The translations under genes were made by a program, and so were the position numbers. 64,000 bases of DNA from an uncultured Prevotellaceae bacterium (GTDB lineage: Bacteria > Bacteroidota > Bacteroidia > Bacteroidales > Bacteroidaceae), in assembly GCA_947167515.1 (NCBI GenBank), contig CAMVIM010000003.1, positions 1 to 64,000 of the forward strand, written 5' to 3'. The notes below the pieces were generated by a model. That model worked only from the letters and a program-made list of their open reading frames with translations, ran no database searches and was not told where the DNA came from. Within the stretch, counting starts at the first letter, position 1. Every line of letters begins with the position of its first letter. This document shows positions 5,724-50,069 of the stretch, piece after piece.

Positions 5724-5921
5724 TCACCACAAGTCTTCGCTGCCGCCAGCCTCCATATCCTCAATGATACGCTGCTGGGCACCAGGGTCTTTCTCTCCCT
5801 CCTTATCCACACCGCCATAACCCATGCCAGCTCCCGTCACACCTGGACTGACACACACTGGCAATTCACTTTCCATCTCAAAGCGCTCCACCAGGGGAGC
5901 CACATATCTTTTCTTTTTCAT
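5724..5921 (-). CDS. 65-residue conserved peptide, cassette A
   Basis: Small protein of 65 residues starting MKKKRYVAPLVERFEM. The middle is glycine-rich (PGVTGAGMGYGGVD), there is one cysteine (Cys23), and the end is acidic (GGSEDLW). No signal peptide or membrane segment is visible. It is the last gene of cassette A, 38 bases after the cohesin-like gene. A copy at 46917-47114 is 56/65 identical and sits in the same position of a matching cassette; nearly all differences are conservative or at loop-like sites. That conservation argues for a translated gene. An in-frame start 43 codons upstream lies inside the preceding gene and is unlikely. I do not recognise the family. A start KKKRY-P followed by a short body resembles many short Bacteroidota peptides of unknown function. 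Confidence 0.8.
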   Translation of the reverse strand: MKKKRYVAPLVERFEMESELPVCVSPGVTGAGMGYGGVDKEGEKDPGAQQRIIEDMEAGGSEDLW

Positions 5922-5959
5922 TGTCTTGTCTGTTTTTTCTATTTTTCTCAGTTCTCTCC

Positions 5960-7165
5960 TTAGCGTATTGAAACCTTCTTGCTGTTGAAGATGTACACAC
6001 CCTTCTCCGCAGGCTTGCCGCTGAGCCTGCGCCCGTCCAGCGTGTACCAACAGCCATCCTCTTTCGTGAAATTCGTGGCTTTTATCCCCGTGGTTTCACC
6101 CCCGATGCAGAAACGGATGTTGGCGTAGCTCTCGTCCACCTCCGTCAGCACGTCAAAAAAGTCGAAGTAGGCACGGAACGCCTTCATCTTCGTGTTCCCA
6201 GTCGAATACCAGAAATCGCCGCCACTCAGAAACAGCGTCTTCTCCGGCACCTCCGTCTGGGCCACATACGTGCCGATCAGTTCGCTCCACGCCTTTCTCG
6301 TGCGCTTCACCGTCGCCACCACCGGCTCGTCCTCAGGGTCTATATCCACGCCGTCCACCGTGAACTCGCTGACGGGACTGCTCACCTTGATCAGGCAGGG
6401 ATGATTGGCCTCTATCGCACTGAGAGGGGCAAAACTCACCTCAATGCCCACGATGTCATCTCCATCTTCCGTCACGTCATAGCCCGCGAAGTCCAACAAC
6501 TGCACATCCTCGCCAAACGCCGCCTTCACCTGCGCCGCTGTCATGGCGAACGGCAGGCAGAGCGTTCCCCACTCGTTTGCCTTGATGGTGCGCTTCACGC
6601 GCACATCCACACCTGTGGCAGCAGCGGGCGCTGTGGTGGAAGTCTCGTCCAGCACCACGCGTGTGTCGGCAGGTGCGCCGATGGTGACGGTGAAGGGGAT
6701 GTCCGCCGGCGTGTGCTTCGTCTCGTCAGGCTCCGTCAGGTTGATGGCAGAGAGCTTGCAGTCAAGCTCCTCACCTTCCTCCAGCGCGGCATCGGCCTTG
6801 AGGGTGATCTGAATGACCGCCCCGCCCGTTCCGGGTATCGCCTGCGTTTCCGTGTAGTAGCCCAGCACACGGAAGGTGTTCACCTCCGTGTCGGGCTGTG
6901 ACATGCTCAGCGTGAAGTCCTCGTTCAGACGCTCACCCTTCGTGTAGTCCAGCTTGCCCTTCCCGTTGAGGGCGACCGTGATGCCGCTTGCCAGCTCCAC
7001 ATTGAACTGGAATGCGGCGAACTCCGTCGTGGGGTTCTCCAGCGCAATCTCCAGCGTGGCCTCCCCTCCCTTGGGGATGGTGATGCTCTGCACCGAGAGG
7101 CCTTCTGCCGCAGCACGGCCGCACCATGCGGTCAGCACTGCCAATAAAATGATAATCTTCTTCAT
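5960..7165 (-). CDS. Secreted cohesin-like domain protein, cassette A
   Basis: Exported protein of 401 residues with a signal peptide (MKKIIILLAVLTAWCGRAAA). Residues about 24-165 form a cohesin-like beta sandwich, recognisable by IPKGGEATLEI, FAAFQFNVELASGITV and INLTEPDE. The second half carries KRTIKANEWGTLCLPFAM and FTVDGVDIDPEDE and ends in a short tail, WYTLDGRRLSG...KGVYIFNSKKVSIR. That tail resembles C-terminal regions of exported proteins in Prevotella-like bacteria and may be a sorting signal for the type IX system (inference; porQ is in this window). The start at 7165 is chosen over one six codons upstream because it begins the signal peptide. The paralogue at 47145-48356 has a closely similar second half. 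Confidence 0.8.
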   Translation of the reverse strand: MKKIIILLAVLTAWCGRAAAEGLSVQSITIPKGGEATLEIALENPTTEFAAFQFNVELASGITVALNGKGKLDYTKGERLNEDFTLSMSQPDTEVNTFRVLGYYTETQAIPGTGGAVIQITLKADAALEEGEELDCKLSAINLTEPDETKHTPADIPFTVTIGAPADTRVVLDETSTTAPAAATGVDVRVKRTIKANEWGTLCLPFAMTAAQVKAAFGEDVQLLDFAGYDVTEDGDDIVGIEVSFAPLSAIEANHPCLIKVSSPVSEFTVDGVDIDPEDEPVVATVKRTRKAWSELIGTYVAQTEVPEKTLFLSGGDFWYSTGNTKMKAFRAYFDFFDVLTEVDESYANIRFCIGGETTGIKATNFTKEDGCWYTLDGRRLSGKPAEKGVYIFNSKKVSIR

Positions 7166-7198
7166 ATTACTTGGTTTTATCAATGTCTTCTTTTTCCA

Positions 7199-7320
7199 AC
7201 ATGCCCCTTCGGGGCGATTAAACGGATTTTTCAGATTTTTCTGATTGAATCTTGTCTAATCGAGCCGCAGGCTCCAAATCCGTTGAATTCGTTAAATCGT
7301 GCCGCAGGCACATGTTTTTT
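7199..7320. repeat. Cluster of three small hairpins in a dispersed-repeat context
   Basis: Three short perfect stems occur in the gap between the two large cassette A genes: GCCCC-TTC-GGGGC at 7203-7215, GAGCC-GCA-GGCTC at 7262-7274 and GTGCC-GCA-GGCAC at 7299-7311. The last is preceded by ATTCGTTAAAT and followed by ATGTTTT. The same frame, with a different hairpin (GCCC-GAA-GGGC), recurs at 15691-15722, so this looks like a small dispersed repeat family. Confidence 0.6.
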
Positions 7321-7353
7321 TATTTTTCTTGTCTTTTCCGTTCCCAAACGATT

Positions 7354-10300
7354 TCATTGTGGGTCGAGCATCTGCATCACTTCACGCACATTGGCGGCGT
7401 TCGCGCCCCCGTCGTGCAGGATGATGTTCGCCACCACCACGATGTCCGTCACGTCCACGCTGCCGTCACCGTTCACGTCGGCTGCCACCGCGTCGAACGA
7501 CTCGCTCGCATGGCCCAGAATGCCGTTGGCGATGCCCACAATGTCCGTCACGTCGATGACACCGTCACCGTTGGCATCACCCGGGATGCTGTTGCGCACG
7601 GTCAGCACACAGGTCACATCGGCTGGCGAGATTTTCTTCTCCGCCGTGGTCGTCAGGTTGATGCTGGAGAGGCTCACCTCGTACTCACCAGCCTCCATGT
7701 TCTCCGCTGCCTCCAGAGTCACGTTGATGACTGCACCCTCGTTGCCCGTGATGCTCTCCACCTCGGTGGAGTACATGAGCACCTTATATACATTGGCCTC
7801 TCCCGGCTTGCTTGCAGTCAAGGTGTGGTCAGCGCACCGCTCTGTCTTCGTCACGATGTACTTCCCCTTGCTGTTCTTCGCGATGCTCACGCCTGCGGGC
7901 AAGGTGAGGTCGAACTGGATGGCGGTGATGTCCTCCGTGTTGCTCATGTTCACGGGCAGCACGACTTGTCTGCCGCGAAGCACTTGGGTGTCGGTGACGG
8001 CCAGCGTGTTGTTCTTGGACCATTCGTCCACCACCGTCAATGTTCCCTTCACATACGTCATCTCATAGTTGGCAGCCTCTGCACCTGACACATTGATGTC
8101 GTAAGTGCCGACAGGGCTTTCAGTGGTTGCCTCGCATGTGAAGGTGGGCTGTGCGGTCAGCACGGTTGCATCATCGTCACCCCAAAAACCTTCGTAGGAA
8201 GCCGTGAAGGCAGGATTCTCCTCACCCACATTCTTGGTGGCATTGTTAGCCGTGATGGTCAGCGTAGCCTTTGCAACCGTCAGCGTGAACTCCTTGCTGA
8301 AAGGCTTGTATTCGTCGTTGCCAGCTTGAGTGGCGGTGATGGTGGCAGTGCCTGCACCCAGAATGGTGAGGGTGTTGCCGTTGATGGTTGCCACATTCGT
8401 GTTACCACTTGTCCATGTGAGGGCTAAACCTTCTGTGGTTGTTGTTGGCAAGGTGTAAGAAGCATCACCGTAGGTCATGGATGGCAGGGATGCCAGTTCC
8501 AGTGACTGTTCTTCCTGTGGGGCAGCTGCCTCCATAATGCCACCCTTGAAAACATCTTCTGTCCAACCAGCAGCAATATAAGCATCTTTTGTGCCGTATG
8601 GGACAGTTAAGGTACATGTGGAGGAAATGTTTTTGAATGCCGAATTACCAAAGGCAAAAGGTTCTTCTATCTTGGAAACAATGGAGGTAAGGCTGCTACA
8701 GCCTGAGAAAGCATCATTGACAATGTTTCTGACGCTGTTAGGAATAGTTAAGGAAGTCAAACCGCTACAGCCTGAGAAAGCAAAGGAGCCTATGGCTGTT
8801 ACGCTTTCTGGAATAGTCACAGAAGTCAAGTTTACACAATTTTGAAAGGCTTGGCTGCCTATAAATGTCACGTTATTTGGAATCGTTACAGAGGAAAGGC
8901 TTCCGCATCCCATGAAGGCTCCTGTTTCAATTTTTTCCACTTTGTTGGATATGGTTATGGAAGCCAAACCGCTACAATCCTGGAAGGTGTAAGAACTAAT
9001 GGAAGTGACGCCGTTGGGGATAGTTACAGAGGTCAGTCCGCTACAATTACGAAACGCATGAGAACCGATAGATGTTACGCTGTTAGGAATGGTCACGGAG
9101 GTCAGGCCTTTACAGCAATAAAAAGCAAAATTGCCAATAGATGTTAAACTGTTAGGAATGGTCACAGAGGACAAACCGCTGCAATTCACGAAGGCATAGG
9201 AACCTATGGATATGACACTGTTTGGAATGTCCAAACCCTTCACTTCTTCTCCGTTCAGATAAAGATGACCGGCAATGGATAAAGGATTGCATGTGGCATC
9301 TGAAAAAGAAATATTGGACCAAGCAGCAATATCTGTTATATGTACAGAGGTCAACTTGTTACATCTGTTGAAAGCATATTTGTCAATCGATTTAACTCCG
9401 TTGCCAATGGAAACGGAGGTTAGGGCAGTGCAATTTGAGAAAGCATATCCATTGATGGATATGACGCTGTTCGGTATAGTCACGGAGGTTAGGTCGCTAC
9501 AATAACTGAAAGCCTCTTTGCCGATGGTTGTGACGCTGTTTGGGATGGAGGTGTTTTTACAGCCTATCACTAAAGTATTAGTGGCTGTTTCGATAATAGC
9601 GTTGCAATTATTACGAGAATCATATATTGGATTCCCTTCTTCTACGTGGATGGATGATAACCAACTTCTGAAAGCATACCTACCAATGGATGTGACTTTG
9701 CTTGGTATAATTATAGAGGTTAGCTTACTACAAGCATCGAAGGCATTTTCACCGATTGAAGTAATGTTTCGAGGAAGATTGATACTTGTTAAACTTGCAC
9801 AATTGTAAAATGCTCCTTCTCCTAACGATATAAGTCCATCTGGTAGGTTGGCAATTTCCAGACTCTCGCAGTCTTCGAAGGCCCAATCCCCAATTGATTC
9901 TACGTTTCTAGGTATAGTAATAGATTTCAGTAATGAACAACCTATAAAAGCCTCATCTCCAATAGTACGTAGTCCCAAAAAGTATTGTAATTCGTTGAAG
10001 ACTTGAATTTTTTTATTACCAGAAAACGCATCACCTATACTCTTAACAGATGCAGCCTCCTCCATGCTCAATTGGCCGTCCTTATTCGTGTCCCATTTGA
10101 AAACACAAATCGACTTCACATTAGTATCAGCGAAAGTAATGTTTGGAACAACTTCCACAATTCCCCCCTTGAACACATCTTCCGTCCAACCTGCAGCAAT
10201 GTAGGCATCTTTCGTGCCGTATGGAACTGTCAAAGTACATGTGGATGATATATTATCGAATGCAGTATATTCAAAAGTGAAAGGAGTCTCTATCTCTGAG

Positions 10301-11628
10301 ATTACGGATGTCAAGCCGCTGCAACCAGAGAAAGCATAAGAGCCGATGCTGGTCACGCTGCTGGGGATGGTCACGGAAGTCAATCCTGTGCAATAATAGA
10401 ATGCATTAAGTCCTATTGTGGTTACACCACCAGGGATGGTGATGGAGGTTAATTCGGTACAGCCGACGAAAGCATCAGACCCCACTTTCACCACTCCGCC
10501 GGGAATCTTTGTCTTTTTGCATCCAACAATTAATGTATTTGAAGACTTCTCAATAATTGCATTGCAGCCATTTCGTGAATCATAAGTGAGATTCCCCTCT
10601 TGAACATCGATTGTTGTTAAACCGCTACAAAAATTGAAAGCACCGCCACCGATGCTCGTCACACTGCTTGGTATGGTTATAGATGAAAGACTTATGCAAT
10701 TCCAAAAAGCAGATGAAGAAATCGTTGTTACACCATTGGGAATAATTAAAGTGGTCAAACCAGTGCAAGTATCAAAGGCACTAACGCCAATTGTCTTTAC
10801 ACTATTGGGAATAGTGACAGATGTCAAGTTTGTACAGCCAGTGAATGCCGTTTCTCCGATAGATGTCAATTTCGTGAAGTATCGTAATTCATTAAACGAA
10901 GTGATCCTAGTATTACGTTTGAACACAGTGCCGATACTTGTCACTGAAGCAGCCTCAGCCTCACTTAGTTCTCCGTCTCTGTCTGTATCCCAATTGGTGA
11001 CACAAATAGCCTTGACATTGGCATCAGCAAAATTGATGTTAGATTTAGGTACTTCTACTATACCGCCTTTGAATACACTTTCCGTCCATCCAGCAGCGAT
11101 GTATGCACTCTTTTTCCCATATGGTATTGTTAATTTGCAGGAAGAAGAAATACCGGAAAATGCACCAGTATTAAAGGCGAAAGGAGTCTCTATCTCTGAA
11201 GTGACAGAAGATAAATCACTGCATTGCGAGAAAGCATTTTGACCTATTGATGTGACACTATTGGGAATAGTTATGGCAGTAAGGAATACACAATTATTGA
11301 AGGCCATAGTGCCAATAGAGGTGATACTGTTAGGGATGGTGACCTTTCGCACCCCAGTATAATTGAAGGCCCAATTCCCAATGGATATGACAGAATAATC
11401 AACTCCTGAATAAGTTACCGTTTCTGGTATGGTGACAGAACCTTGAGGATTACCGCATACTCCCGTGCCACTTCCAACCTGAACAGTCTTATCTACCTCA
11501 CTAATGATTTTGAAACTTATGATATCACCTTCAGAGGTATTTGCTGTAAATGTGTCACCATTGGCAGCCTTGACGTGTACACTCAACAGGATACACACCA
11601 ATACAAAAAGAACGTTTTTTTTCTTCAT
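7354..11628 (-). CDS. Giant BspA-like leucine-rich repeat protein with cohesin-like and dockerin-like modules
   Basis: Exported surface protein of about 1424 residues with a signal peptide (MKKKNVLFVLVCILLSVHVKA). Residues about 40-1045 are BspA-type repeats built on the theme TSIG-AF-C-LTSVTIPNSV. Two calcium-binding loops interrupt them, NWDTDRDGELSEAEA and KWDTNKDGQLSMEEA. The phrase YIAAGWTE-VFKGGI closes three repeat blocks, a sign of internal duplication. Next come an Ig-like/MBG stretch (about 1050-1205, TLTITANNATKNVGEENPAF), a cohesin-like domain (about 1215-1345) and two dockerin-type loops (GDANGDGVIDVTDI, ADVNGDGSVDVTDI). BspA relatives bind host matrix proteins or other cells. 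The start at 11628 begins the signal peptide; frame codons upstream lie in the leader. The repeat DNA is AT-richer than the part encoding the C-terminal modules. Confidence 0.88.
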   Translation of the reverse strand: MKKKNVLFVLVCILLSVHVKAANGDTFTANTSEGDIISFKIISEVDKTVQVGSGTGVCGNPQGSVTIPETVTYSGVDYSVISIGNWAFNYTGVRKVTIPNSITSIGTMAFNNCVFLTAITIPNSVTSIGQNAFSQCSDLSSVTSEIETPFAFNTGAFSGISSSCKLTIPYGKKSAYIAAGWTESVFKGGIVEVPKSNINFADANVKAICVTNWDTDRDGELSEAEAASVTSIGTVFKRNTRITSFNELRYFTKLTSIGETAFTGCTNLTSVTIPNSVKTIGVSAFDTCTGLTTLIIPNGVTTISSSAFWNCISLSSITIPSSVTSIGGGAFNFCSGLTTIDVQEGNLTYDSRNGCNAIIEKSSNTLIVGCKKTKIPGGVVKVGSDAFVGCTELTSITIPGGVTTIGLNAFYYCTGLTSVTIPSSVTSIGSYAFSGCSGLTSVISEIETPFTFEYTAFDNISSTCTLTVPYGTKDAYIAAGWTEDVFKGGIVEVVPNITFADTNVKSICVFKWDTNKDGQLSMEEAASVKSIGDAFSGNKKIQVFNELQYFLGLRTIGDEAFIGCSLLKSITIPRNVESIGDWAFEDCESLEIANLPDGLISLGEGAFYNCASLTSINLPRNITSIGENAFDACSKLTSIIIPSKVTSIGRYAFRSWLSSIHVEEGNPIYDSRNNCNAIIETATNTLVIGCKNTSIPNSVTTIGKEAFSYCSDLTSVTIPNSVISINGYAFSNCTALTSVSIGNGVKSIDKYAFNRCNKLTSVHITDIAAWSNISFSDATCNPLSIAGHLYLNGEEVKGLDIPNSVISIGSYAFVNCSGLSSVTIPNSLTSIGNFAFYCCKGLTSVTIPNSVTSIGSHAFRNCSGLTSVTIPNGVTSISSYTFQDCSGLASITISNKVEKIETGAFMGCGSLSSVTIPNNVTFIGSQAFQNCVNLTSVTIPESVTAIGSFAFSGCSGLTSLTIPNSVRNIVNDAFSGCSSLTSIVSKIEEPFAFGNSAFKNISSTCTLTVPYGTKDAYIAAGWTEDVFKGGIMEAAAPQEEQSLELASLPSMTYGDASYTLPTTTTEGLALTWTSGNTNVATINGNTLTILGAGTATITATQAGNDEYKPFSKEFTLTVAKATLTITANNATKNVGEENPAFTASYEGFWGDDDATVLTAQPTFTCEATTESPVGTYDINVSGAEAANYEMTYVKGTLTVVDEWSKNNTLAVTDTQVLRGRQVVLPVNMSNTEDITAIQFDLTLPAGVSIAKNSKGKYIVTKTERCADHTLTASKPGEANVYKVLMYSTEVESITGNEGAVINVTLEAAENMEAGEYEVSLSSINLTTTAEKKISPADVTCVLTVRNSIPGDANGDGVIDVTDIVGIANGILGHASESFDAVAADVNGDGSVDVTDIVVVANIILHDGGANAANVREVMQMLDPQ

Positions 11629-11705
11629 AATATATAAATGTTTTGGTTGACATCTACGTTTGCCTCCACCAGTCCCAAACAAAGGCATTTATATATACAC
11701 ACAAG

Positions 11706-11814
11706 AAGCGTGGAACTGTATGTCCACATCTTCAAGGTGGGGGCCCTGAGAATTGCCCGAAGTAATAAGATGATTGTTTTAGCAGTTCCACGCACAATGC
11801 GTGAAGCCGCTATG
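11706..11814 (-). ncRNA. Structured 5' leader element, copy A
   Basis: Leader of the BspA-like gene on the - strand. Read on the + strand, GCGTGGAACTG (11708-11718) is the exact complement of CAGTTCCACGC (11783-11793). The second of these can instead pair locally with GCGTGAA (11800-11806). The middle strand therefore has two exclusive partners, as in attenuators or riboswitches. A second copy with the same end motifs, order and nearly the same length lies at 49700-49806 before the other cassette. I do not recognise a described RNA family. Confidence 0.55.
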
Positions 11815-11915
11815 TTCACTCTTAATTACTTCGAGAGGGCTTTAAGTAGCACACGAGCCGTCTCAAACATTCTTTGCAATGATTGAAATTTCTCAGGTTT
11901 CCACCTTGCAAGAAA

Positions 11916-11965
11916 GAGCATAACGCTTCTATTTTACCAATAAGGCACGGCACCGAAGTACCGCA
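11916..11965 (-). repeat. Conserved 50-base early-leader segment, copy A
   Basis: This segment matches 49860-49909 at 47 of 50 positions. On the transcribed strand it includes CGGTAC-TTCG-GTGCCG, a stem with a UUCG tetraloop. In the other copy the stem changes only to wobble pairs. It lies directly downstream of the predicted transcription start. Confidence 0.7.
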
Positions 11966-11996
11966 CGGGACGGTGCACAAGGCACCATCTTGGCGG

Positions 11997-12028
11997 CAAA
12001 GTAACGGAAAATGTGGGAAACATCCAAA
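11997..12028 (-). promoter_or_regulatory. Cassette A promoter
   Basis: On the - strand, TTTG (12025-12028) is followed after exactly 20 bases by TTACTTTG (11997-12004), a good Bacteroidota promoter. Predicted start is near 11990, giving a 5' leader of about 360 bases. The cassette B promoter has the same boxes and spacing. Confidence 0.7.
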
Positions 12029-12072
12029 CTTTTCCCAAACTTTTTGAAGACGGAGGCAAAAAAGGCACAAAA

Positions 12073-12103
12073 AAGGCACAAAGCCGTGGGGACTTTGTGC
12101 CTT
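12073..12103 (-). terminator. Hairpin upstream of cassette A promoter
   Basis: AAGGCACAAAG and CTTTGTGCCTT form an 11-bp stem with a nine-base loop CCGTGGGGA, and the - strand reads into a T run. It would end the DUF2442 transcript. The same stem and near-identical loop recur at 50007-50033 before cassette B, so it appears to be part of the conserved unit. Confidence 0.75.
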
Positions 12104-12194: not shown

Positions 12195-12431
12195 TTATGC
12201 AGCAGTTCCGATGTCCCATAAATACTCTGGAGCAAAGTCTGCTCCATTCTCCCATTCGATAGTGTTGAATTTGATGGAGAATTTTTTGAAATAATCAATA
12301 TCTCTCAAAGGAGCAAAAACGGAGCCATTCAAGGACTGACTCAAATCCGCAATCCTCGTCTCTCCATTGTTGAACAGCAACTTCACTCGATAGCCATCCA
12401 AATAGGTCGCTTCAATCACTTCGATAAACAT
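12195..12431 (-). CDS. DUF2442 protein
   Basis: Small protein of 78 residues beginning MFIEVIEATYLDGYRVKLLF and containing the DUF2442 hallmarks FNNGETRIADLS, F-PLRD, and a tail with WENGADFAPEYLWD. It follows the DUF4160 gene after seven bases, so the two are one transcription unit. Such pairs are common in bacteria and archaea and have been discussed as possible toxin-antitoxin-like modules, but no activity is established. The AT-rich composition and location next to cassette A suggest an accessory origin. Confidence 0.8.
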   Translation of the reverse strand: MFIEVIEATYLDGYRVKLLFNNGETRIADLSQSLNGSVFAPLRDIDYFKKFSIKFNTIEWENGADFAPEYLWDIGTAA

Positions 12432-12438
12432 GGTACAA

Positions 12439-12696
12439 TCATTTAAGAGGTTCTATCTTATCAAGAGGTTCTCCCTTCTGTGCTTTCTCCCAGTTCTTCA
12501 TCAACTCTGCACGATGTTCCTCAAGCCATTCCAATATCATACGCAATGCCCTGCCTGGCATTTCGCCCTTCACAATGCCATCTTTGATGTTGACAATAAT
12601 CTTATAGTCACCATACCATGCATGAAAATGTGGTGGTTGATGATCTGAAAAGTTCATCCAAATGTAAATTCCATAAAAAAAACTAATCTGCGGCAT
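12439..12696 (-). CDS. DUF4160 protein
   Basis: Small protein of 85 residues beginning MPQISFFYGIYIWMNFSDHQ. The family motif PPHFHAWYGDYK is clear, followed by the usual helix-rich C-terminus (ALRMILEWLEEHRAELMKNW). Length is normal. It is the first gene of a two-gene unit with DUF2442. The function is unknown; a toxin or antitoxin role is only a suggestion from the pairing. No promoter of the TAnnTTTG type is obvious upstream. Confidence 0.8.
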   Translation of the reverse strand: MPQISFFYGIYIWMNFSDHQPPHFHAWYGDYKIIVNIKDGIVKGEMPGRALRMILEWLEEHRAELMKNWEKAQKGEPLDKIEPLK

Positions 12697-46916: not shown

Positions 46917-47114
46917 TCACCACAACTCCTCGCTGTTGCCAGCCTCCATGTCCTCGATGATGCGCTGCTGGGCACCCGGATCCTTCCCTCCTTCCTTATC
47001 CACACCGCCATAACCCATGCCACCGCCCGTCACACCAGGACTGACACACACCGGCAGCACATTGTCCATCTCAAAGTGCTCCACCAAGGGAGCCACATAT
47101 CTTTTCTTTTCCAT
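46917..47114 (-). CDS. 65-residue conserved peptide, cassette B
   Basis: Paralogue of the peptide at 5724-5921, identical in length and 56/65 identical in sequence. It starts MEKKRYVAPLVEHFEM, has a central block PVCVSPGVTGGGMGYGGVD and an acidic end NSEELW. The single cysteine and all but one glycine-rich positions are kept. No export signal is visible. It is the last gene of cassette B, 30 bases after the cohesin-like gene. Function unknown; possible roles are an intracellular partner of the secreted proteins, a processed peptide, or a regulator. Confidence 0.82.
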   Translation of the reverse strand: MEKKRYVAPLVEHFEMDNVLPVCVSPGVTGGGMGYGGVDKEGGKDPGAQQRIIEDMEAGNSEELW

Positions 47115-47144: not shown

Positions 47145-48356
47145 TCAATTGTCAATTCTCACCTTCTTTCCGTTCACGATATACACGCCCTTCGGCAAAG
47201 CCTTCGTGCCTTCCACTTTCACGCCTTGCAAGGTGTACACGCCCTCCGGCATCGTGCGGTCGGCAATTCCTTCGCGGACACCCTTCACGCCTGTTGCCTC
47301 TCCGCCAAACACAAATCGCACGTTGGCATACTCCCCATCTTCCACATTCGTCAGCACATCGGCAAACTCGAAGTAAGCCCTGAACGCCTTCATCTTCGTC
47401 TTCCCTGCCGAATACCAGAACAGGTTCTCGCTGATGAACAGGTCATTCTCCGGCACCTCCGTCTGCGCTACATACGTGCCAATCAGATAGCCCCTCTCGG
47501 CCTTCTTCTTGCCCACCTGCACCGTCGGTTCCTCCTCAGGCTCTATATCAACGCCATCTACCGTGAACTCGTTTACGGCTTCGCTCACCCGAATCAGGCA
47601 GGGATGGTTCGCCTCAATCTCACTGATGTCGTCGAAACCCACCTCGATGCTTACGATGTCGCCCTCACCATCCTCCTCCGAACTCCACGACACGAAGTCC
47701 TTCAGCTCCACATCCTCGCCAAACGCCTCCTTCACCTGTGCCTCGCTCATGGCGAAAGGCAGGCAGAGTGTGCTCCATTCATTCGCCTTGATGGTGCGCT
47801 TCACACGCACGTTGGCGTTCTCCTCTGGCACTGGCATCGTGGTGGAAGTCTCATCGAGGATGGTGCGTGACTCGCCGATGGTGACGTTGAAGGTCACATC
47901 GGGGAAAGGCACTCTCACCTTGTCGGTGGTGCTGAAAGTGATGCCAGTGATGGTTGCCGTAAAGATGTCGCCCACGGTCAGCGTCCTGTCTGCACAGAGC
48001 GTCACTGTGAGCATGGTGCCGCTGCTGGCAGTGAATGGAGTCTTGGAAAACGAGGCCACCACAAAGCGGTCATCGCCCGAAGCCAATGCCTTGGGCGTGA
48101 TGTCGTGGTCGGCCAAAGCATCGCCCATGGCCACGACAGGTGCGCCTTCCTCATCCTTCAGCGTGGTCACGCCGTCGGGCAGCGAGAGGTCGAACTGGCA
48201 AGCCGTGTAGGTATTGTCCGAGTTGAAGAGGAAGCCGATGTTGAGTGTGGCTTGGCCGCCTTGAGGCACTGTCACGTCAGCCACCGTCACTTCGTCTGCC
48301 GAGACCTTGCCCATCATGGCAAGCAAGGTACATGTAATCATCAAAATGCGTTTCAT
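47145..48356 (-). CDS. Secreted cohesin-like domain protein, cassette B
   Basis: Exported protein of 403 residues with signal peptide MKRILMITCTLLAMMGKVSA. A cohesin-like domain covers about 20-165 (VADVTVPQGGQATLNIGF, CQFDLSLPDGVTTL). The second half contains KRTIKANEWSTLCLPFAM, FTVDGVDIEPEEE, LIGTYVAQTEVPEN and KMKAFRAYFEF, each nearly identical to the protein of cassette A, and ends GVYTLQGVKVEG...PKGVYIVNGKKVRIDN. The first half is much less similar between the two copies than the second. The start at 48356 begins the signal peptide; frame codons upstream overlap the previous gene. The terminal motif may be a surface-sorting signal (inference). Confidence 0.8.
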   Translation of the reverse strand: MKRILMITCTLLAMMGKVSADEVTVADVTVPQGGQATLNIGFLFNSDNTYTACQFDLSLPDGVTTLKDEEGAPVVAMGDALADHDITPKALASGDDRFVVASFSKTPFTASSGTMLTVTLCADRTLTVGDIFTATITGITFSTTDKVRVPFPDVTFNVTIGESRTILDETSTTMPVPEENANVRVKRTIKANEWSTLCLPFAMSEAQVKEAFGEDVELKDFVSWSSEEDGEGDIVSIEVGFDDISEIEANHPCLIRVSEAVNEFTVDGVDIEPEEEPTVQVGKKKAERGYLIGTYVAQTEVPENDLFISENLFWYSAGKTKMKAFRAYFEFADVLTNVEDGEYANVRFVFGGEATGVKGVREGIADRTMPEGVYTLQGVKVEGTKALPKGVYIVNGKKVRIDN

Positions 48357-48405: not shown

Positions 48406-49641
48406 TTATTCCTGCGACAGGACGATGTCAATCACACTCACCACGTCTGCCACGTCGATAAATCCGTCGCCATTCACATCGGCCACCGACTCGGTGAACC
48501 ACGTGGGCCGCTCCTCTACAATGTAGCCGATGATGCTGATGGCATCCGTCACGTTCACAACACCGTCTGCGTTCACGTCGCCCAAGGCAATGGGACCCAC
48601 CGACATCTTCAGCGTGAAGTCGGGTGCATAGACGGTTGTGAGGTCGGAACCATTCTTCTGGGTCAGTTGCACGTTGGTGAACTTCACATCGTAGTCACCA
48701 TAGGCCATCTCCTTGTCCACATCGAAGCGGATGTTCATCACGGCTCCCTCGCTGCCAGTCACCAGCGCGTTCTTGGTGGAGAAGGCCGTGAAGCGCACGG
48801 AACCCGAAGCGGTTGTGGTGCCAGAAAGCGTGTGGGTGGAAGTGCGTTCTGTCACAGTGGCATCGGCCGTGCCATCCCCCTTCATGGTCAGTGTCACACC
48901 CTCAGGCATGGTGAGGTCGAACTGAAAGCCCGCCACGTTGATGTCGTTCTTCATCAGGATGGGCACCGTCACATGGCCTCCAGCACCACCCGAAAAGTCG
49001 GCACTGTAGAGGTAGTTCATCTGTGGCTTCACCGTCACCACACATGAGGCCGAAACACCGTTGTTAGCCATGCAGGTGATGGTGGTGGTGCCTTCGGAGA
49101 GTGCTTCCACCTTACCGTTATTATCGATGGAGGCGACAGAAGGATTTGTGCTCGTCCAAGAAAGTGTAGGTGTGGCTGTTGTCGGTATGATGACAGGGGA
49201 AAAGGTGTAGGTGTCACCTACAGTCAGGGTTTGTTCGTTAGGTATGTTGATACTATTTACATCAACAACGGTGATGTTGTATGTAAAAGTGTTAGATGAG
49301 GTGCGAATTGTGTAATCTTCTCTTGTACAAAGGGTGTAGGTTTCCACAATTGTATAAACACCAACCTTTTGAGGAGTAATTTGAAATGTTAAATATTTTG
49401 GTGAATATGTTCCTGGATATTGATATTCTTGTACTACGAGAGATAAGGCCGTGGCATCAGACAGTGTATATTCTTGACCATATATATATCTACTGTCATA
49501 GTTTATGGTAATTCCCAAATCACTGGCCAGATTAAGTGTTATAGTCTGTCCTCTTGTGATAGTGATGTCTCGCCCTGAGTTAGCCGCTTTCGTTGAATAG
49601 GCTAATAGGAGAATCGATAAAAGTAATAAAGCCTTTTTCAT
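48406..49641 (-). CDS. Secreted Big_2/cohesin-like/dockerin-like protein, cassette B
   Basis: Exported protein of 411 residues, signal peptide MKKALLLLSILLLAYSTKAA. An N-terminal beta-rich region without clear family lies at about 20-130. A bacterial Ig-like (Big_2) domain follows at about 130-200 (NEQTLTVGDTYTFSPVIIP, SWTSTNPSVASIDNNGKVEALSEGTTTITCMA), then a cohesin-like domain at about 210-345 (GGHVTVPILMKNDINVAGFQFDLTMPEGV). Two dockerin-type calcium loops end it (GDVNADGVVNVTDAIS, ADVNGDGFIDVADVV). It occupies the position of the BspA-like giant in cassette A, with Ig repeats in place of leucine-rich repeats. Its own cohesin-like and dockerin-like modules could allow self-association or binding to the next gene's product. 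Confidence 0.82.
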   Translation of the reverse strand: MKKALLLLSILLLAYSTKAANSGRDITITRGQTITLNLASDLGITINYDSRYIYGQEYTLSDATALSLVVQEYQYPGTYSPKYLTFQITPQKVGVYTIVETYTLCTREDYTIRTSSNTFTYNITVVDVNSINIPNEQTLTVGDTYTFSPVIIPTTATPTLSWTSTNPSVASIDNNGKVEALSEGTTTITCMANNGVSASCVVTVKPQMNYLYSADFSGGAGGHVTVPILMKNDINVAGFQFDLTMPEGVTLTMKGDGTADATVTERTSTHTLSGTTTASGSVRFTAFSTKNALVTGSEGAVMNIRFDVDKEMAYGDYDVKFTNVQLTQKNGSDLTTVYAPDFTLKMSVGPIALGDVNADGVVNVTDAISIIGYIVEERPTWFTESVADVNGDGFIDVADVVSVIDIVLSQE

Positions 49642-49806: not shown

Positions 49807-49859
49807 CATATCCTTCGTCTTATCGTTGTTGAAATTTGGTCGTTTTCTACTTATTAGAC

Positions 49860-49909
49860 GAGCATAACGCTTCTATTTTACCAATAAGCCACGGCACCGA
49901 AACACCGCA
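49860..49909 (-). repeat. Conserved 50-base early-leader segment, copy B
   Basis: Matches 11916-11965 at 47 of 50 positions. Includes the UUCG-capped stem on the transcribed strand, here with wobble pairs. Located directly after the predicted transcription start. Confidence 0.7.
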
Positions 49910-49938
49910 GTGAACGACGGCAAGCCACCATTCGGGGG

Positions 49939-49970
49939 CAAAGTAACACAAAAAGATTGAAACCCACAAA
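49939..49970 (-). promoter_or_regulatory. Cassette B promoter
   Basis: On the - strand TTTG (49967-49970), 20 bases, TTACTTTG (49939-49946), the same boxes and spacing as cassette A. Predicted leader of about 290 bases. Confidence 0.7.
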
Positions 49971-50006
49971 CTTTTCCCCAACTTTTTGAAGAAAAGGACG
50001 TAAAAA

Positions 50007-50033
50007 GGCACAAAGCCGTGGGGGCTTTGTGCC
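50007..50033 (-). terminator. pfkA terminator hairpin
   Basis: GGCACAAAG (50007-50015) pairs with CTTTGTGCC (50025-50033) around CCGTGGGGG, 37 bases after the pfkA stop. On the - strand a T-rich tract follows. Stem and loop are almost the same as at 12073-12103. Confidence 0.8.
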
Positions 50034-50069
50034 TGAGGAATGGTGAGAGTGGGAAGGGGGATGAAGGGG

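Follow-up and report, generated by a model that had tools for sequence, protein, structure and literature searches.

Adjoining dockerin and cohesin-fold genes in a Prevotellaceae genome: a probable two-piece surface-display cassette with a type-IX-linked anchor

The DNA considered here (the window) covers the first 64 kb of contig C3 in the 3.68 Mb genome of an uncultured Prevotellaceae bacterium (assembly GCA_947167515.1). It carries two copies, A and B, of a cassette of three genes. The protein encoded by gene 1 is exported; behind a variable front it has a cohesin-fold module and, at the C-terminus, a type I dockerin. Gene 2 encodes a cohesin fold followed by a conserved module and a C-terminal tail, and gene 3 a peptide of about 65 residues. 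The cassette is real, conserved and modular. Its architecture, recurrence, fold and co-variation, and the co-occurrence of the tail with the type IX secretion protein SprA, are established by computation; from these we infer binding and location at the cell surface, and consider it likely that cognate dockerin–cohesin pairs encoded in cis mount exchangeable display proteins on a type-IX-linked anchor. A previous reading of the letters alone (the sequence-only reading) described both loci, with their gene order, hairpin, promoter, leader and three genes, and this description is confirmed. Three points are added here: a division of labour between the two proteins, in which gene 2 rather than gene 1 carries the tail; a connection between this tail and type IX secretion; and a proposed one-to-one pairing.

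Each cassette would be a self-contained two-piece surface-display unit. The gene 2 product would be the anchor, or receptor, which combines a signal peptide with a single cohesin and the conserved middle module; its tail would direct it into the type IX route and to the cell surface. The gene 1 product would be the displayed protein: it has an exchangeable front (BspA leucine-rich repeats, immunoglobulin (Ig)-like, CotH/lectin-like, InlB-like and others), a second cohesin-fold module, the C-terminal dockerin and no tail. This dockerin would plug into the cohesin of the adjoining gene 2 protein. Since the pairs differ between cassettes, one cell could carry several pairs that need not cross-react.

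Pfam Dockerin_1 (PF00404) matches the two gene 1 proteins of the window with 39.7 and 39.9 bits (cut-off 22.9) and is found in all ten gene 1 relatives compared with Pfam, once under the cut-off (L128, 20.2 bits). The fronts vary: LRR_5 (BspA-like) repeats reach 590 bits, over the cut-off, in copy A and are absent from copy B, and the ten relatives include LRR_5, Big_2, CotH with a ricin-type lectin domain, InlB-type repeats and DUF7619. The fronts of A and B were assigned by Pfam, those of the copies on contigs C4, C7 and C19 only by eye. Neither gene 2 nor the peptide matches any Pfam or NCBIfam family above its cut-off. Pfam Cohesin (PF00963) gives no match in the window proteins at E 0.1, and 22.5 and 21.6 bits for the relatives L144 and L142, under the cut-off of 24.1. 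Because no match exceeds the cut-off, the modules are called cohesin-fold modules (C1 in gene 1, C2 in gene 2). Of 50 rows each in the structural searches, cohesin entries fill 49 for gene 2 and every one for the module of gene 1, and several of these entries were solved with dockerins; both modules are predicted to adopt the cohesin beta-sandwich. By a crude pattern, 54 of 57 gene 1 proteins and 77 of 80 gene 2 proteins begin with a stretch that resembles a signal peptide. The sequence LDPQ, or a similar one, stands right after the dockerin at the end of gene 1 (e.g. window 7357-7368), exactly in 10 of 61 proteins and under a looser pattern in 26 of 61.

One genome per species was scanned with an alignment of 16 gene 2 proteins (from which the relative L082, with a wrong start, was left out), and the best 80 of at least 506 relatives were retained. 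These loci are in metagenome-assembled genomes (MAGs), mostly from the ruminant gut, named Prevotella, Prevotellaceae, Bacteroides, Bacteroidaceae or Bacteroidales; since several of these MAGs are also among the separately collected genomes, the two sets overlap and are not independent. Of the 80 loci, 61 have a dockerin gene upstream of gene 2, at 132 nucleotides (nt) or less in 60 of them and at 750 nt in L171; in L181 the dockerin is internal. Five more loci (L152, L154, L157, L160, L173) carry gene 1 and gene 2 fused in a single open reading frame (ORF), whose order is, by eye, display, cohesin, dockerin, cohesin, middle, tail. A short K-Y-P peptide is encoded within 450 nt downstream in 57 of the 80 loci, which also contain 14 further dockerin ORFs elsewhere (fusions not counted). 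The idea that the copies represent one system with exchangeable display modules is supported by the upstream dockerin genes, the fusions and the joint change of dockerin and gene 2 cohesin (see below). The longer DNA repeats between A and B, 76–88% identical, are located in gene 2 and the peptide, and the leaders can be aligned too. A single recent segmental duplication without wider conservation is rejected as the origin of the likeness: the same gene order is found in many MAGs at 35–60% identity, and only copy A and the C12 copy are near-identical.

In this genome there are six cassette copies (two on C3, one each on C12, C19, C4 and C7), one of them without its 5' end. Seven peptide places were found (11 with the peptide profile), and six of the seven follow a gene 1/gene 2 pair. 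The C12 copy, in which gene 1 is reduced to its 3' end (L008:4579-6712), is 99.94% identical to copy A across 1603 nt; it is a recent copying or conversion event, and shows that DNA blocks do get copied. A whole-genome search with Dockerin_1 at E 0.001 finds six genes, every one a cassette gene 1; the seventh row is an overlap with the C19 gene, read in a frame that contains a stop. A cohesin profile made from 14 modules finds 13 places at E 0.01, twelve of them in the six cassettes (one C1 and one C2 each, with a partial C1 in C12) and one on contig C21. At this sensitivity, dockerins and cohesins therefore form a nearly closed set of pairs. The lone module outside the cassettes (G000:C21:24469-24840, 51 bits) lies directly before a tail match on the same strand (C21:24931-25074), and the genome-wide Dockerin_1 search gives no dockerin adjoining it. 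In other genomes, several peptide or cassette loci come within about 1–3 kb of a contig end, so that copies are probably undercounted in those MAGs.

The dockerin of gene 1 and the cohesin of gene 2 change together. In 57 cassettes (55 of the 61 loci with a dockerin neighbour and the two window copies; L141, L149, L163, L179, L181 and L191 were left out), the pairwise distances of the dockerin and C2 are correlated with a rho of 0.477, which is reached by 0 of 500 permutations. The gene 2 alignment comprised 65 of 68 sequences and the two window copies (L146, L168 and L176 were left out). The rho is 0.507 when the modules are realigned separately and 0.466 in 45 non-redundant cassettes (0 of 300 permutations in both cases). 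The controls within one protein give 0.109 (C1–dockerin) and -0.143 (C2–middle+tail), and those across proteins 0.105 (C1–C2), 0.066 (C1–middle+tail) and -0.155 (dockerin–middle+tail). In 47 of 57 cases, against 5.1 expected, the cassette whose C2 is nearest also ranks among the five with the nearest dockerins. Mutual information in 49 cassettes also places dockerin–C2 at the top of the six pairs of modules (z 13.9), though less cleanly; C2–middle has a z of 1.2 and dockerin–middle of 0.2.

The signal can be located on the dockerin, whose columns were numbered with the first calcium Asp as 1. Columns 10, 11, 17, 18 and 21 of both repeats, which we take to be the classical cohesin-binding positions, have a mean z of 6.17 against C2 (10 columns), versus 2.68 for the other 38 (p 2.6e-5), in a test that was run after a first look at the ranking. 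These 10 columns vary less than the others, yet carry the higher C2 signal; column 13 and, in repeat 2, column 20 are also high. The same 10 columns give a mean z of 2.51 versus 1.83 against C1 (p 0.025) and of -0.63 versus 0.15 against the middle module. A review places one of the dockerin leucines, at positions 22 and 58, in the interface with the cohesin (PMC12484212); its position 22 is taken as column 21 here. The concentration of the C2 signal on the binding-face columns argues against pure linkage. The sequence-only reading had suggested that the two exported proteins could assemble, and with adjoining genes, fusions and a dockerin that changes together with the gene 2 cohesin, they probably do.

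An unlikely arrangement, compatible with the pairing proposed here, is a chain in which the dockerin binds C1 of a further gene 1 protein, so that fibres would form, with gene 2 as their cap or anchor. Indeed, gene 1 itself has a well-predicted cohesin fold, C1 and the dockerin co-vary (z 8.5), and 14 loci have a further dockerin ORF, of the same type as the cassette's in four or five. However, the distance correlation of C1 and the dockerin does not stand out from the permutations (36 of 300 reach it) and the recognition columns show little excess against C1, two statements that are weakened by the poor alignability of C1. Quite improbable is co-inheritance alone, whereby homologous recombination in the conserved middle module and the peptide would move a display–cohesin–dockerin–cohesin block and the dockerin–C2 correlation would arise by linkage, with no binding. 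The copying of blocks (copies A and C12), the correlation, to varying extents, of C1, dockerin and C2 with one another and the decoupling of the middle module from the dockerin and C2 fit this explanation, but the dockerin–C2 signal is the strongest of the six, it falls on the binding-face columns of both repeats with little excess against C1, and fusions of the two proteins exist. It is very improbable that the modules are generic adhesive beta-sandwiches (e.g. glycan-binding) with the dockerin as a calcium-stabilised C-terminal cap, in neighbours that are co-expressed and unbound: the silence of Pfam Cohesin on the window proteins and a weak NCBIfam match of one homologue's cohesin region to a hyaluronate-binding family (E 0.0014, 18 bits versus a cut-off of 220) are in its favour, but not the cohesin entries that fill the structural searches, several of them solved with dockerins, nor the specific dockerin–C2 co-variation.

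The C-terminal tail distinguishes the proposed anchor from the displayed protein: its profile matches 80 of 80 gene 2 proteins versus 1 of 61 gene 1 proteins. There are 63 tail places in this genome at E 0.01, and its SprA scores 2706 bits. In 91 genomes of the family that are at least 90% complete, SprA is found in 66 and the tail (at E 1e-5) in 65; the tail is present in 63 of the 66 SprA-positive versus 2 of the 25 SprA-negative genomes, and one of these, G074, has a single tail. Genus g9 contains both states: G137 has SprA and the tail, and G008, G036, G058, G077 and G094 have neither. By this co-occurrence with SprA the gene 2 tail is linked to type IX secretion, and we infer from it that the protein takes this route. 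Only two short strands are predicted at the C-terminal end. The candidate identity of an ordinary type A C-terminal domain (CTD) is rejected since the CTD profile is unmatched, and the tail is called "type-IX-linked" for the lack of a TIGR04183 match.

Relatives of the peptide are found in 41 of 45 genomes of the genus at E 0.01, with at most 14 per genome. The neighbourhoods of 50 of the listed places, chosen mainly by score, were examined. In 49 of them the upstream sequence was long enough, and 44 of the 49 have a tail-bearing gene no more than 520 nt before the peptide. The YGGVD subtype and a cohesin gene occur together in 18 of the 49 places, YGGVD only in 5, a cohesin only in 0 and neither in 26, which means that 0 of 26 non-YGGVD peptides are accompanied by a cohesin. 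The peptide had been considered part of the cassette. This stands for the YGGVD subtype, which was found only behind gene-2-type genes (23 places), with no homologue of this kind in an unrelated neighbourhood; but the subtype belongs to a broader family that follows other tail-bearing exported proteins. Among 59 peptides (57 and the two of the window), 56 contain [YF]GG.[DT], which was not a selection criterion, and the following G (59/59) and P (52/59) are also conserved. Third codon positions change most among the peptide copies of this genome, consistent with a translated gene. The hypothesis that every tail gene has a peptide is rejected: about 15 of the 50 best-scoring tail genes of this genome have one (50 of 63 places were counted; the script flagged 14, of which one, C10:82816, was false by eye, and two, C19:49255 and C40:27081, had been missed). 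The peptide is probably an intracellular accessory of its tail-bearing partner, involved in export or assembly. More tentatively, the displayed protein, which has no type IX signal of its own, might cross the outer membrane, or be held there, only in complex with the cohesin carrier encoded in cis; the YGGVD peptide would be a dedicated export or assembly factor, and orthogonal pairs would allow several displays without mix-ups.

Several results weigh against anchoring by cognate pairs through a type-IX-linked tail. Mutual information is also positive for C1–dockerin (z 8.5), C1–C2 (8.2) and C1–middle (3.8), so that a co-inherited linked block may supply part of the signal, and the highest single pair of residues, at 0.252, stays within the permutation range, which extends to 0.319. 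No upstream or fused dockerin is detected by the profile used in 14 of the 80 gene 2 homologues. These include genes at contig ends (L146, L165, L169, L172) and two loci (L168, L176) in which the upstream C-terminus is, by eye, a degenerate dockerin; the rest lie next to different genes, which by eye are ribosomal protein genes (L148, L166), Sus-like genes (L180) and others. The motif used does not detect the peptide in 23 of the 80 loci. Regarding the tail, G010 has 63 tails and no SprA was found in it, though other genomes of its genus have SprA; conversely, G007, G039 and G121 have SprA and no tail. Shared ancestry is a confounder of this co-occurrence, and the type A CTD profile (TIGR04183/PF18962) gives no match to the tail. 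In the five places with YGGVD only, the gene 2 middle module and the tail are whole or partial and no cohesin is readable, owing to a broken frame, little upstream sequence or another N-terminus. Finally, the peptide compared with the cargo modules (300 permutations) gives 0.128 for the tail (7 reach it), 0.120 for the dockerin (21 reach it) and 0 or less for the others. Co-evolution of the peptide with the cargo is thus not supported, and a constant partner, such as the export or assembly machinery, is our guess.

The cellulosome uses the same two folds and is anchored to the cell by sortase or SLH. As with cell-anchored cohesins such as ScaE of Ruminococcus flavefaciens, the anchoring cohesin of the cassette would receive a dockerin protein, and the cassette dockerin co-varies at the classical binding-face positions of both repeats. 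Unlike cellulosomes, the cassette is hosted by Bacteroidota, has one cohesin per anchor and partners encoded side by side as a pair, its clients are BspA/Ig-like and other display proteins, and its anchor has a type-IX-linked tail, not sortase or SLH. A cellulosome is rejected, as cohesin profile A8 reveals no multi-cohesin scaffoldin in this genome (two modules per cassette, one per gene, and one on C21) and all six Pfam-detected dockerins are in cassette genes. Glycosidases of Clostridium perfringens also have the cohesin fold outside cellulosomes (2w1n, 2jh2, 2vo8), in a different phylum; to our knowledge, no adjacent cognate anchor gene or peptide accompanies them. Dockerins have been reported in rumen Bacteroidetes/Prevotella, with a functional role described as not defined yet (PMC7480376). 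They are borne by proteins of the same kind of organism; unlike in that paper, a likely partner is named here, namely the cohesin encoded next door, which goes undetected by Pfam in the window proteins. Like the cargo with a type A CTD, as defined in PMC10202324, gene 2 proteins are exported, have a C-terminal tail and occur with SprA, but this tail is missed by TIGR04183 and the displayed protein has none (a split system).

No description of the cassette was found among the open-access papers searched. If the pairing is true, it provides a likely partner for the dockerins of these bacteria, easily overlooked, even though its gene adjoins, because these cohesins are under or outside Pfam detection, and two small purified domains would suffice for a direct test. 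Further gains would be a natural set of mutually specific cohesin–dockerin pairs within single genomes, a likely split route that takes tail-less proteins to the surface by type IX secretion, and a small conserved protein with a function open to probing.

The leader RNA that precedes both copies (114 positions) is structured: 98.4% of cells are paired in its 5' hairpin, which has 18 doubly changed cells, compared to a mean of 6.1 after shuffling (0 of 500 shuffles). Compensatory changes affect four pairs, a number within the usual range (165 of 500 shuffles); the second hairpin does not vary and is uninformative either way. The core AATAGAAGCGTTATGCTC is invariant in the leaders (window 11882-11995 and 49828-49938, L010, L009, L034, L072). 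No Rfam family matches the leader at gathering score, and the weak matches look like chance. At E 1e-4, model R1 detects the leader in 20 of the 45 genomes of the genus, and at E 0.01 in 13 of the 83 sequence sources searched. It lies about 230–340 nt before BspA-like and other exported proteins, nearer to PIN-like small genes, and also precedes toxin–antitoxin-like pairs (PIN-like by eye) and lipoproteins. The sequence-only reading included the leader in the system; it is a real RNA but not specific to the cassette, and is rejected as its hallmark, given the 13 of 83 sources and the toxin–antitoxin-like and other exported genes that it precedes. As it also stands before non-cassette genes, it is considered a wider regulatory or 5' untranslated region element, outside the cassette definition. 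Tandem leaders about 0.9–1.1 kb apart are present in L009, L010, L034, L072 and L084; between them lie a weak CdiA_C-like ORF (L010:10844-11389), a YoeB/ParE toxin (L009:7506-7787) and, by eye, a PIN-like pair (L034).

Table 1. Features of cassette copies A and B in the window; we take TTACTTTG to be a promoter motif of the Bacteroidota -7 type.
Feature	Position	Strand	Evidence
Terminator-like hairpin upstream of copy A, AGGCACAAAG...CTTTGTGCC and T run	12069..12102	-	sequence
Promoter-like TTACTTTG, copy A, presumed Bacteroidota -7 type	11997..12004	-	sequence; similar sites precede other leader copies
Structured leader RNA, copy A	11882..11995	-	model R1, 112.3 bits; copy A is part of the model's alignment
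Gene 1, copy A: exported display protein, BspA leucine-rich repeats, MBG_2, cohesin-fold module, C-terminal type I dockerin, ends LDPQ	7354..11628	-	
MBG_2 domain, gene 1 A	8035..8262	-	Pfam
Cohesin-fold module C1, gene 1 A	7591..8016	-	
Dockerin_1, gene 1 A	7417..7584	-	Pfam
Gene 2, copy A: signal peptide, cohesin fold, conserved middle module, C-terminal tail	5960..7165	-	
Cohesin-fold module C2, gene 2 A	6671..7114	-	
C-terminal tail, gene 2 A	5963..6115	-	
65-residue peptide gene, copy A, YGGVD subtype	5724..5921	-	
Terminator-like hairpin upstream of copy B	50002..50034	-	sequence
Promoter-like TTACTTTG, copy B	49939..49946	-	sequence
Structured leader RNA, copy B	49828..49938	-	model R1, 96.9 bits; copy B is part of the model's alignment
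Gene 1, copy B: exported, Big_2, cohesin-like module, C-terminal dockerin	48406..49641	-	
Cohesin-like module C1, gene 1 B	48631..49002	-	cohesin profile, 88 bits
Dockerin_1, gene 1 B	48427..48585	-	Pfam
Gene 2, copy B: cohesin-like, middle module and tail	47145..48356	-	
Cohesin-like module C2, gene 2 B	47871..48299	-	cohesin profile, 131.3 bits
C-terminal tail, gene 2 B	47154..47318	-	
65-residue peptide gene, copy B	46917..47114	-	

Other genes are found next to some cassettes. Dockerins of a different type occur in ORFs that adjoin the cassettes of L120, L131, L132, L156, L177, L182 and L188, several of these ORFs ending in the tail; DVDVADVITTVNYAAG is common to the different-type dockerins of L120, L131 and L177. 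In the C4 cassette, a gene with a Cthe_2159 carbohydrate-binding domain (132 bits) stands between the leader and gene 1 (L010:8270-10255). In genome G113, the cassette is followed by type IX secretion genes of the PorP/SprF and GldK types (L034:4105-6560). Directly upstream of copy A (window 12195-12696) is a DUF4160/DUF2442 gene pair, which is toxin–antitoxin-like in size and order.

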